From Candidatus Methanoperedentaceae archaeon HGW-Methanoperedenaceae-1 (GTDB taxonomy: Archaea; Halobacteriota; Methanosarcinia; Methanosarcinales; Methanoperedenaceae), in contig PGYG01000015.1 of the NCBI GenBank assembly GCA_002839545.1, forward strand, positions 1-35,311: a stretch of DNA of 35,311 nucleotides, in the 5' to 3' direction. The position numbers and the translations under genes were made by a program. This document shows positions 14,717 to 19,049 of the stretch, one piece after another (position 1 is the first letter of the stretch; each line of letters opens with the position of its first letter). Below the pieces are notes generated by a model. That model had not been told where the DNA came from. It saw only the letters and a program-made list of their open reading frames with translations, and ran no database searches.

Positions 14717-14761
14717 ACTATTCTCAAAGAATTTATAAAACCCTTCAACCAATAACATTTG

Positions 14762-15317
14762 ATGATTGAAACACTTACGTTCCTTGTCTCAGGGATGATT
14801 TTCGGGCTGACATCAGGCATATCACCCGGCCCCCTCCTGACACTTGTGATTTCAGAAACATTGAAAAACGGCAGTAGTGGGGGCATGAAAGTCGCGGTTG
14901 CGCCCCTGATAACTGACATACCTATCAGGCGCGGTTTTTATCGGGTATCTTGCTTATGAGAATTTATTTACAAAAGATGTCGAATTTGATATAAGGGATT
15001 TAAATCCACAGTCCTTAAGAAAAGGTGTAATCACGAACTTCCTGAACCCGCACCCGTACCTGTTCTGGTTCACTGTCGGCGCGCCAACGGTATTAAAAGC
15101 AATGGGGGTCGGAGTTTATTCTGCTGCTGCTTTTGTATCAGGGTTTTACGTGTTCCTTGTCGGCTCAAAAATCCTTGTGGCAATTATTACTGAGAAATAC
15201 AGCCTGTTCCTGAAAAGCAGGACTTACATTTACCTTCTCAAAGTTCTTGGTGTAATATTGTTGTTGTTTGCCTTCTCATTCTTGCGCGAGGGACTGGAAT
15301 TATCTGGTGTGATATGA
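14762..15317 (+). pseudogene. LysE-family exporter with internal deletion
   Basis: The first part (14762-14923) reads IETLTFLVSGMIFGLTSGISPGPLLTLVISETLKNG...APLITDIPI, the typical start of LysE/RhtB-type transporters. From about 14925 the sequence continues in another frame as SGAVFIGYLAYENLFTK...NFLNPHPYLFWFTVGAPTVLKA, the latter half of the same family. About 25 residues (one membrane span) are missing between them and the frame is broken, so the gene cannot make a full transporter. A TATA-like ATTTATAAAA remains at 14731-14740. A sequencing or assembly deletion is the main alternative. Confidence 0.8.
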
Positions 15318-15333: not shown

Positions 15334-16215
15334 TTAACCCATTAATTTCAGGAAAATCTCCTCAAGGGAGGCTTCTTTTGTTTTAATGTCAATAATACTG
15401 CCGTTGTTCTTTGCAACCCATCCCGTAATCCTGTTAAACTCATCCAGTTCATTTGTGCGTGCAATGTAGTTCCCGTTCACTTTTTCAGCATCAAAACCAA
15501 CTTCCTCTTCAACAGAAAACTCGATGGTATACTCAACCTCACCGCACATTTCCTTAATCTCATCCATCGTCCCGCTTGCGAGCTCCTGCCCCTTGTTTAT
15601 AATCAGCACATGGTCGCACAGGCTTTCGACCTGGTAGAGGTTGTGCGCGCTGAAAACAACAGTCTTCCCCTGTTCCTTAAGCCCTGCCACAAAATCCACG
15701 AGATACTTAGACGTTGTCGGGTCAAGACCTGATGTCATCTCATCCAGTACAAGGTACTCCGGGTCGTTAATCAGCGCCCTTGCAATTGCAACCTTGCGCT
15801 GCATTCCCTTTGACATCTCGCCAAGCCTCTTTGACCCGGCATCGAGCCTCAGTGCAAGAAGAATTTCCTTTATCCTTGCCTGAGCCACCGGCTTTTCCAC
15901 TCCGTAAACCTGTGCAAAAAACATGAGGTAATCGTTTGCAGTCATACCTTCATACAAGGGGCTTTCTTCTGGAAGGAAACCGAGTTTCTGTTTTATTTCC
16001 CGTGCATGCCTGGTAATATCCATTCCCTGGATTGTTATCGTCCCGCGGGTGGGTTTAATCAAACCGCTTAGCATTTTAAGGGTTGTTGTTTTTCCTGCAC
16101 CGTTTGGTCCGACTATCCCGAAAATCTCGCCTTTCCCAATCTCAAAATCAAGGTTTTCAACGGCAGCAAAACCGTCATATTCTTTTCCAAGTCCTTCAAC
16201 CGCAAATTCGCTCAT
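15334..16215 (-). CDS. ABC transporter ATP-binding protein (ABC-2 type exporter)
   Basis: This 293-aa ATPase contains Walker A GPNGAGKTTTLKML (about residue 37), the Q-loop LPEESPLYEGM, the signature LGEMSKGMQRKVAIARAL, Walker B YLVLDEMTSGLDP and the H-loop FSAHNL. It resembles the NatA/CcmA-like family that energises ABC-2 permeases. I start it at ATG 16215 (MSEFAVEGLGKEYDG), not at the 16404 start of the ORF track, which would run antisense into the permease. A C-terminal domain (residues 225-293) ends in EASLEEIFLKLMG, typical of this family. It diverges from its two predicted permease partners across 37 bp. Confidence 0.9.
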   Translation of the reverse strand: MSEFAVEGLGKEYDGFAAVENLDFEIGKGEIFGIVGPNGAGKTTTLKMLSGLIKPTRGTITIQGMDITRHAREIKQKLGFLPEESPLYEGMTANDYLMFFAQVYGVEKPVAQARIKEILLALRLDAGSKRLGEMSKGMQRKVAIARALINDPEYLVLDEMTSGLDPTTSKYLVDFVAGLKEQGKTVVFSAHNLYQVESLCDHVLIINKGQELASGTMDEIKEMCGEVEYTIEFSVEEEVGFDAEKVNGNYIARTNELDEFNRITGWVAKNNGSIIDIKTKEASLEEIFLKLMG

Positions 16216-16252
16216 AGAAACAGTTATAAAATTACTCACTAATATAAATACA

Positions 16253-18007
16253 ATGCGAATACTAACGATTTCCAGGTGGGAACTCAGGAAAGGCGGGACG
16301 GATTTTGATAAAAAAACCATTGCCTTTACTGCTTTTCTCCTGGTTTCAATAGGTATATTATCCTTATTATTAGCCCAGAACGGTCTCCACATAAACGATA
16401 ACATCTACAAAGCTGCGGTCACAGACCCGTATATCGCCTCTGTACTGGAGACAGACGACAGGTTCTACGTGCGTGTGGCTGCGGAGGATGAGGCAAGGTC
16501 TCTTTTTTATTACGAAGGTTATGACCTCCTGATAATCGGGAATGCTGTTACCCATCACAGGAAAGAAAAGTCAATTGCAGCACTTGATGCACTTGACAGG
16601 GCAGTTTTAAGATATGACGAAGCCAGACTGCTTGGCTATAACGATTTGAATAATACCTTCCCTGTATGGATTAATGTGGAGCGGCTTTCAAGAGAGCAGG
16701 TTTTCCAGCAGCCATCGTTACAGAAACTCCCGGAATTTGAAAAAACACCACTTGAGGATGCCGGACAGGCGCCTGTTATGCAAACGCCTGTTCAGGGAAA
16801 AACCGCACAGCCCGCGCGAACCCCGTCATTTACGGAACTTTCTGGCATAAAAAAAGGTCTTCCTATGAAAGAGCAAGACCTTGCAACTCCCTCTCATTTT
16901 AATCCGCCCATACCGTTTAAATCCGTTGTCATGAGTTTCCTTTTCATCTTCCCATTATTCTTTATTGCACAGCTTTATTCATCAAGCATCATGGAAGAGA
17001 GGGTGAAGCGCAAAGGCGAGCTACTGCTTGTTTCCCCGGCAGCGCCCTATGAGATTGTTATCGGGAAACTTCTGCCGTATCTTCTTATCTCAATGCTGTT
17101 AACGGCAGGCATAATAGCATATATCGGCGGCACGGCTTTGATGCTCCATATCCTGCTTCCCGTATCACTGATGTTTCTTTCGACAGCATTCCTTGGTGCG
17201 ATAATCGCGCGCAGTTTCAAGGAACTGACATTTGTCCTGATTTTCCTTTCGGTTATCCTGTCAGGATACATTTTCCTGCCAGCGATGTTTTCAAACATCC
17301 ATGCAATCAGCATCGTTTCCCCGGTAACCCTTGTCGTCAAGCTGCTTGAAAATGAAATGATTACCCTGCATGAGTACCTTTTTTCAACCACCCCGTTTTA
17401 CCTTGTCTCGACACTGGTTTTCATGTTCGGTATTTTCATTTACCGTGAAGAGGATTTATTCACGCAAAAACCCATAAAAAGTAAACTTGCGGATTCACTC
17501 CAGGTATTTATCGGGAAAGTCCCTGCTCCTTTATTCTTTTTAAGCATCGTAATGTTACCAGTCGTATTACTTATCCAGCTAATGTTAATCGTGCTGATGT
17601 TCAATATTCCCCTGCGATACGGTATTGTTGCTTTCATATTTCTTGCAGCCTTTGTGGAAGAAGTCGTAAAATCAGCAGGGATTTACACGGTTTTTTCAAG
17701 GGATTTAAAGGAACTAACCACACGGAATGCCCTGGCTGCCGGGATTTTATCAGGAGCAGGGTTTTTTGCAGGCGAGAAGGTCTTACTGCTTGTTGTCATT
17801 TCAAGTATTGCAGGCTCGGTTTTCGGGTCAGTGATGGGTATCGGTCTTCTGGTATATCCCCTGATGCTGCATGTAACCAGTACCACGGCAGCAGCGCTTG
17901 GAATGAGGTATATGGGAACAGGGAAGTACCTTTTATCCGTGCTAATTGCAACACTGATTCATGCGGCATACAATCTTTATCTTGTAAGGGGGGTTATTTT
18001 TGGGTAA
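16253..18007 (+). CDS. ABC-2 permease fused to a PrsW-like intramembrane protease domain
   Basis: This 584-aa membrane protein starts at ATG 16253 (MRILTISRWELRKGGTDFDKK). Residues 1-430 form an ABC-2 permease: one TM helix, a large extracytoplasmic region with a Pro/Gln-rich linker, and a cluster of TM helices after KRKGELLLVSPA. Residues about 430-584 form a separate multi-span domain with EEVVKS (about 469), GAGFFAGEK (about 500-507), HVTSTTAAALG (about 540) and HAAYNLYL (about 570), the Glu and His pattern of PrsW/CPBP-type glutamic intramembrane proteases. The substrate and protease activity are not known. It overlaps the next permease by 8 bp and pairs with the divergent ATPase. Confidence 0.85.
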   Translation: MRILTISRWELRKGGTDFDKKTIAFTAFLLVSIGILSLLLAQNGLHINDNIYKAAVTDPYIASVLETDDRFYVRVAAEDEARSLFYYEGYDLLIIGNAVTHHRKEKSIAALDALDRAVLRYDEARLLGYNDLNNTFPVWINVERLSREQVFQQPSLQKLPEFEKTPLEDAGQAPVMQTPVQGKTAQPARTPSFTELSGIKKGLPMKEQDLATPSHFNPPIPFKSVVMSFLFIFPLFFIAQLYSSSIMEERVKRKGELLLVSPAAPYEIVIGKLLPYLLISMLLTAGIIAYIGGTALMLHILLPVSLMFLSTAFLGAIIARSFKELTFVLIFLSVILSGYIFLPAMFSNIHAISIVSPVTLVVKLLENEMITLHEYLFSTTPFYLVSTLVFMFGIFIYREEDLFTQKPIKSKLADSLQVFIGKVPAPLFFLSIVMLPVVLLIQLMLIVLMFNIPLRYGIVAFIFLAAFVEEVVKSAGIYTVFSRDLKELTTRNALAAGILSGAGFFAGEKVLLLVVISSIAGSVFGSVMGIGLLVYPLMLHVTSTTAAALGMRYMGTGKYLLSVLIATLIHAAYNLYLVRGVIFG

Positions 18008-19049
18008 CACTTCTATCATAGTACGCAAGGAGGTAAGTTCACTTCTCAACGAGAAGACACTTATTCTTGCAATTATCATCCAGCTTCTGATTGCATCCCT
18101 GTCATCCCTGCTTGTATTGGGTCTTGCATCGTTTTTTGACCCGTCAGCCCTTGGTAAGTATGATACGCCAAATTCGGATATCGGGATTGTCGGGGAAGGG
18201 GAAATAAACAGGTTTATCGAAAAAAGCGATGCACGGGTGTTCCATTATATGGATTTAAGCGTTGCACTGGATGATTTCTATGCTCATAAGATAGATGCAG
18301 TCCTCGTTGTCCCGCAGGTTAAATCAGGTGATGCCGGGATTATACGGTTTACACTGTACCTTCCTGATTCTGATATAAGGGGCACACTTGCAACGTTACA
18401 GCTTAAAGCACCGCTAGAAGCGTATGAAGCGTATGTCCGTGATGTCAGGGGCACGAGAATCGGTTTTGAACCTGTAAGACTGTATGTGGGCGACATGCCG
18501 AAGAAAACGTCCACGTATTTTGAGTTTATTTACGGGGTACTCATACCCCTGCTGGTATTCACGCCGGTTTTTATCTCAGGCGGGCTGATTATTGATATGC
18601 TGACAGAAGAATACGAGCGAAAGACCATGGAACTTTTGATGGTAACGCCTGTGTCTTTTTCTGAAATAGTTAACGGGAAGATGATAACTGCAATAGTTAT
18701 TGTCCCTGCACAGGTTTTGTTGTGGCTTGTGCTTGTTGGGATAAACGGGGTTTCAGTCCATAATACCTGGATAATCCTGTTAATGGTCAGTATAATTGCT
18801 GCCATTATCGTATTAACGGGTGCGATTGTTGCTGTAAGATTCAAAAAACGGGTAATATCGCAGTACCTGTATTCCCAGATCCTGATACTGATGTTTCTTG
18901 TGGCGTACCTGTTTCCTGATTCGCCGTTTAACCTTGCGGCAGGGCTTTCTGCCGGAAGTATCGGGATTAGCTCACTTCTCTATTGCGGCGCGTATGCTGT
19001 GCTTTTGCTTCCGCTGTATGTGTACCTTAAGAAAACCAGCGCATCCTGA
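18000..19049 (+). CDS. ABC-2 type permease
   Basis: This 349-aa protein has one N-terminal TM helix (LILAIIIQLLIASLSSLLVLGLASFF), a soluble stretch of about 130 residues with DIGIVGEGEINRFIEKSDARVFHYMDLS, then six TM helices beginning FIYGVLIPLLVFTPVFISGGLIIDML. The motif EEYERKTMELLMVTPVSFSEIVNGKM is characteristic of ABC-2 permeases (NatB/YhgE-like). The start is TTG at 18000 with GGGGGG before it, overlapping the stop of the fused permease. The two permeases probably form a heterodimer with the divergent ATPase. Confidence 0.88.
   Translation: MGNTSIIVRKEVSSLLNEKTLILAIIIQLLIASLSSLLVLGLASFFDPSALGKYDTPNSDIGIVGEGEINRFIEKSDARVFHYMDLSVALDDFYAHKIDAVLVVPQVKSGDAGIIRFTLYLPDSDIRGTLATLQLKAPLEAYEAYVRDVRGTRIGFEPVRLYVGDMPKKTSTYFEFIYGVLIPLLVFTPVFISGGLIIDMLTEEYERKTMELLMVTPVSFSEIVNGKMITAIVIVPAQVLLWLVLVGINGVSVHNTWIILLMVSIIAAIIVLTGAIVAVRFKKRVISQYLYSQILILMFLVAYLFPDSPFNLAAGLSAGSIGISSLLYCGAYAVLLLPLYVYLKKTSAS

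Follow-up and report, generated by a model that had tools for sequence, protein, structure and literature searches.

The gene at 16253-18007 (+ strand) of a 35,311-nucleotide stretch of DNA from Candidatus Methanoperedentaceae archaeon HGW-Methanoperedenaceae-1, the whole of which we call the window, raises the question of whether an intramembrane protease has been built into an ABC pump and what such a machine would do. The first-pass annotation had proposed that an ABC-2 permease is joined here to a PrsW-like domain. The ORF runs in one frame from an ATG start to a TAA stop (584 aa). Residues 22-392 match PF12698 ABC2_membrane_3 (51.6 bits against a cut-off of 31.6; E 1e-13), and the permease part as a whole (residues 1-400; 16253-17452, + strand) comprises TM1, a large external domain and TM2-TM6, the helices being taken from a full-length AF2 model of low confidence. 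The PrsW-type domain covers residues ~426-579 (17528-17989, + strand) and was recognised with PF13367, AF2, Foldseek and hhalign. PF13367 (PrsW-protease) was absent from the listing of the whole-protein scan and was seen when the C-terminal part was scanned alone (28.1 bits against a curated cut-off of 23.5, E 1.8e-6); this is the sole PF13367 match in the genome. Profile-profile, fold and conservation tests agree with the two family matches, and the proposed joining of the two domains was thus borne out.

The same joined frame was found in 23 of 23 aligned proteins from Methanosarcinales and in nearly all of 80 named loci, the exceptions being loci cut off by the end of a contig and two copies interrupted by stops in frame. 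Both domains lie in a single frame across 99 aligned fusion proteins. Since the joined frame recurs in independent genomes, an assembly join, an annotation artefact and chance were all rejected, and the fusion is real. The two stop-bearing genes are interrupted in the permease or linker (L074:2490-2492, TAA; L037:563-565, TGA) and are either pseudogenes or sequencing errors.

The fusion gene is accompanied by a second permease gene and an ATPase gene, as had been claimed, and both travel with it in related loci. The second ABC-2 half-permease (18000-19049, + strand; 349 aa, TTG start; PF12698, 65 bits) begins within the 3' end of the fusion gene, which it overlaps by 8 bases. The ABC ATPase (15334-16215, - strand; 293 aa) is of the DrrA/NatA type (PF00005, 113.6 bits; TIGR01188, 257.7 bits, below that model's cut-off) and diverges from the fusion gene 37 bp upstream of it. 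This gap (16216-16252) is very short for two archaeal promoters, and gaps of small size are seen in Methanoperedens relatives too. The ATPase gene adjoins the fusion gene in nearly all loci, and the second permease gene adjoins it in related loci. The ATPase gene is divergent in Methanosarcinales and in the locus of Ca. Pyrohabitans, and it lies upstream in the same direction in haloarchaea. Comparison of the two permeases with hhalign gave a common ABC-2 core of 145 columns (E 2.4e-7, probability 93.5), which would be in keeping with a heterodimeric transporter made up of two such halves. The pump would consist of two unlike half-permeases driven by one type of ATPase. Upstream, at 14759-15314 (+ strand), the two parts of a LysE-like transporter gene, identified by eye, lie in different frames, and this gene appears to be broken by a frameshift. 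A gene for an RNA ligase partner protein (PIN_5, TIGR03875; 20263-20961) also lies near the module.

Which kind of glutamic protease is attached to the permease? The hallmarks of PrsW, which has been grouped with APH-1 and the CAAX proteases, are EExxK, HxxxD and an additional His absent from Rce1 (PMC4602095). In PrsW proteins EExxK belongs to the third core helix, the additional His to the fifth and HxxxD/N to the last. The fused domain carries these hallmarks, its final motif having N in place of D (two relatives have D), and the motifs claimed from the sequence were all found: EEVVK at residues 469-473, GEK at 507-509, H540, and H570 within HAAYN. In this respect it resembles the PrsW family at large (PF13367; B. 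subtilis PrsW, haloarchaeal HVO_0408), with its EExxK, FxxxE, extra His and HxxxD/N. Alignment of the domain with stand-alone archaeal PrsW proteins extended over 148 columns (hhalign probability 96.2%, E 2.6e-9). At E <= 0.1 just 24 of 62 relatives matched PF13367, so the Pfam model does not reach the more divergent members of the clade. A CPBP identity was rejected because PF02517 (Rce1/CPBP) did not match the fusion protein; three other genes of the genome match this family, none of them on the window's contig. A PDB sequence search with the protease domain gave no match, and an NCBIfam scan of it gave chance matches only.

Structure prediction pointed the same way. The AF2 model of the domain, built from 62 relatives, was confident (pLDDT 90.6, pTM 0.86) and places H540 in the helix preceding that of H570. 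Its top two PDB matches were gamma-secretase APH-1B (Foldseek probability 0.90 and 0.82), both of them weak (E 0.28-0.37, TM 0.46), and the comparison with APH-1 is supportive, not decisive, for membership of the PrsW/Rce1/APH-1 superfamily. By the helix count of the model, the domain has about five transmembrane helices and one amphipathic helix. Most PrsW members have about eight transmembrane helices, according to the passages on PrsW in PMC3482391, where this number is not treated as a strict criterion. The fused domain may therefore be a shortened core variant of PrsW. Profile, fold and conservation taken together support a PrsW-like, not CPBP/Rce1-like, glutamic intramembrane protease.

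A protease-like fold may have lost its activity, and conservation bears on this directly. Across the protease domain of 99 fusion proteins the only invariant columns are E469, E470, K473, E508, K509, H540 and H570. The first three form the predicted catalytic EExxK motif (17657-17671, + strand). E508 and K509 belong to the GEK motif (17771-17779, + strand), whose G507 is kept in 95 of 99 proteins; family f10 sometimes loses this glycine and retains all seven invariant residues. H540 (17870-17872, + strand) is the additional His of PrsW that is absent from Rce1/CPBP, its role being assigned after PMC4602095. H570 opens the HxxxN motif HAAYN (17960-17974, + strand), in which position 574 is N in 96 of 99 proteins and D in two, the remaining row ending at a contig end. 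One of the two peptide patterns with which the named loci were fetched contained GEK, so the conservation of E508 and K509 is in part a product of selection; the other five invariant residues lay outside the fetching patterns, and profile searches supplied 19 of the 99 rows. Between pairs of proteins, identity in the C-terminal part averages 41% and goes down to 17%; the seven residues stay invariant although overall identity of the domain drops to 17-23%. Homologues without the Glu and His set, the outcome that would have spoken against a protease, did not occur among the 99. Because this predicted catalytic set alone is invariant, proteolytic activity has very probably been kept.

These data also bear on the simplest alternative, that the complex is an ordinary NatAB/DrrAB-type exporter of small molecules or ions in which the PrsW fold serves as a non-catalytic assembly module. 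APH-1 has such a non-catalytic role in gamma-secretase. This non-catalytic member of the superfamily is the closest fold match, and the ATPase is DrrA/NatA-like, both of which favour the alternative. The invariance of seven catalytic-type residues in 99 proteins at 17-23% domain identity argues in the other direction, and we consider a purely structural role improbable.

Where in the membrane would cleavage take place? The full-length AF2 model was poor (mean pLDDT 64), and for this reason Foldseek gave no significant match with it; the topology described here was read from the model helices, at that low confidence, and from loop charges. These suggest an N-inside protein with TM1, the external domain, TM2-6, a charged cytosolic linker (residues 397-425) and then five helices. 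E469 would lie mid-helix in TM8 and H570 mid-helix in TM11, with E508 and H540 toward the outer side of the membrane. The predicted active site would accordingly occupy the middle-to-outer half of the membrane, a position well suited to cleavage close to the external face, like that of RsiW by PrsW.

Such a position is also compatible with a regulatory role, in which the ABC half is a sensor of flux or damage that responds to membrane-active compounds, and a regulator tethered to the membrane undergoes site-1 cleavage by the PrsW domain, comparable to the action of PrsW on RsiW in Bacillus. Transport would then be the signal, and the cleavage product would not be exported. In B. subtilis, resistance to antimicrobial peptides involves PrsW as a site-1 protease (PMC4602095), and bacterial PrsW domains fused to signal-sensing PilZ, cyclic-nucleotide-binding and FHA domains are described in the PrsW passages of PMC3482391. 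However, no membrane-anchored regulator conserved beside the module across clades was found among the ORFs around 82 loci. To our knowledge archaea also have no sigma/anti-sigma pairs of the RsiW kind, which counts further against this role, and we regard it as unlikely.

The same 82 loci were searched for a linked substrate. When ORFs of at least 30 aa were clustered, no plausible neighbour was shared across clades besides the module itself, and the search for small secreted peptides near homologues, put forward with the original proposal, yielded none conserved across clades. The substrate would therefore be encoded elsewhere or be diverse. DUF5803, which adjoins the module in several Methanoperedens, does not qualify as a specific partner and was rejected: in the same class and order, DUF5803 is present in many genomes that lack the fusion, and the reverse holds for most of family f10. 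A defence system was likewise rejected, PADLOC returning generic ATPase matches only. Sixteen Methanosarcinaceae loci encode a single-pass surface protein of ~615 aa, in many of them just after the module. This protein (for example L068:7589-9442, directly downstream of the module) has a signal peptide, a C-terminal helix and DUF11/CARDB-like domains, and could be a client in this family only.

The best-supported reading of these data is an ABC exporter of archaea into which an intramembrane protease has been built, and which would cleave and export within one complex; we hold it tentatively. That the system could export a peptide which it also cuts had been put forward in the first-pass annotation. 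The two unlike half-permeases and the ATPase would form the pump, and the PrsW-type domain borne by one of them would provide a glutamic active site from E469/E470/K473, E508, H540 and H570. This domain would cut a membrane-inserted segment, which might be a remnant signal peptide, a small membrane protein or a membrane-anchored precursor, and the pump would then expel the peptide released. A precedent for coupling of this kind comes from Staphylococcus aureus, where peptides derived from lipoprotein signal sequences disappear wholly or almost wholly from the supernatant of eep and of ecsAB mutants (PMC7157817). It can serve by analogy only, because Eep is an S2P metalloprotease and not a PrsW protein. 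In Firmicutes more generally, Eep/RseP with EcsAB/PptAB jointly release peptides as an intramembrane protease and an ABC transporter (PMC7157817); these are bacterial systems of separate genes with an S2P-type metalloprotease, whereas the archaeal protein is fused and PrsW-type. No Ecs-type family was among the matches listed for the module permeases, both of which match PF12698.

Other systems share parts of this arrangement. In the YydFGHIJ epipeptide locus of B. subtilis a single peptide is served by both a membrane protease and an ABC transporter, but the locus has a dedicated linked peptide gene and a radical-SAM enzyme, is not fused, and its transporter has been discussed as an immunity factor (PMC7026026). 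In PrsW-dependent export of polymorphic toxins the PrsW domain acts as a processing and transit module; there it sits at the N-terminus, joined directly to the toxin, and the PrsW passages of PMC3482391 name no ABC partner. The PrsW fusions described in those passages are with toxins, PilZ, cyclic-nucleotide, FHA and Zn-ribbon domains and DUF2324 (PMC3482391). Stand-alone archaeal PrsW proteins of related genomes are encoded by separate genes of about 210-360 aa, in contrast to the probably shortened C-terminal module of an ABC-2 permease seen here. A review of Haloferax membrane proteases gives one PrsW-like gene, HVO_0408. Haloferax elongans has a stand-alone PrsW gene distinct from its fusion gene, and HVO_0408 is presumably the counterpart of the former.

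The first-pass annotation had considered the pattern notable for an archaeon, and in this it did not hold up: the architecture is widespread in archaea and not peculiar to this one. Among near relatives 23 of 40, in seven genera, gave a match. In a Halobacteriota sample of 394 genomes from 136 genera, 204 genomes and 84 genera gave a match to the full-length fusion profile (E <= 0.001), an approximate tally that includes at least one stand-alone PrsW (G532) and some contig fragments. Full-length relatives occur in Methanosarcinia, Halobacteria, other Halobacteriota and Hydrothermarchaeota. Named carriers outside the haloarchaea are Candidatus Methanoperedens, Methanolobus, Methanosalsum, ANME-2c, GoM-Arc1 and Ca. 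Pyrohabitans (Hydrothermarchaeota); the many haloarchaeal ones include Natrinema, Haloferax, Halobellus and Haladaptatus. In Methanosarcinales, Halobacteria and Hydrothermarchaeota alike, the genes for the ATPase and second permease accompany the fusion gene in named loci. In a tree of 34 fusion proteins, in which deeper forks were not resolved and several rows were long, the Methanoperedens relatives including the protein of the window, Methanosarcinaceae with ANME-2c, the haloarchaea, and families f10/f11 came out as clades. The fusion gene tree broadly follows taxonomy, which fits mainly vertical descent without proving it.

The constant gene company across clades and the taxonomy-following tree fit a housekeeping machine and speak for the exporter with a built-in protease. 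A further alternative is a quality-control function, in which the complex would extract and shred misfolded or leftover membrane segments of no specific kind with the ABC motor pulling. Its broad distribution, which largely follows taxonomy, and the lack of a linked substrate gene across clades agree with this. However, the module is missing from many related genomes, including one of the window's own genus (95% complete) and several genera of the same order, and is thus dispensable, a point that weighs against cleave-and-export as well. We also know of no ABC-2 transporter that acts as a processive extractor of membrane proteins, which makes quality control, in our estimate, slightly more unlikely than a regulatory role. 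Returning to the exporter with a built-in protease, a stronger form of it would be an archaeal machine dedicated to cleave-and-export, dating back at least to the origin of the Halobacteriota, that releases and pumps out intramembrane-cut and possibly signalling peptides. We consider this form doubtful; the lack of a linked small gene across clades counts against a single dedicated peptide. If true, it would offer a route to peptide communication in archaea.

In the literature searched, mostly without subscription papers, we found no description of an ABC-2/PrsW fusion, which does not prove its absence. The one annotated relative found is named merely 'ABC transporter permease subunit', and the H. 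elongans fusion copy matches no Pfam family at E <= 0.01. A module present in about half of the sampled Halobacteriota genomes has thus been labelled just as part of a pump, although in it an intramembrane protease and an ABC pump are physically linked; couplings of the two have so far been seen chiefly between products of separate genes. Since Haloferax, Methanolobus and other culturable archaea carry the module, it is directly testable.

The earlier statement that ABC-2 fusions to CPBP-type proteases exist is correct, as NCBIfam model NF041647 (ABC_perm_CPBP, ABC transporter permease subunit/CPBP intramembrane protease) describes one. It too joins an ABC-2 permease to a glutamic intramembrane protease, of the CPBP type there and the PrsW type here, and the fusion protein of the window does not match it at E <= 0.1 (threshold 435 bits). 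The second, unfused permease does resemble its permease part (41 bits). In Ca. Pyrohabitans there is a second, distant ABC-2/PrsW fusion (L162:487-3314; 572 aa; PF13367, 34 bits). In its permease it is similar to the unfused partner and to the bacterial model NF041647 (82.8 bits). This likeness in a protein with a PF13367 domain suggests that ABC-2 permeases may have been fused to intramembrane proteases on more than one occasion, or that partners were exchanged.
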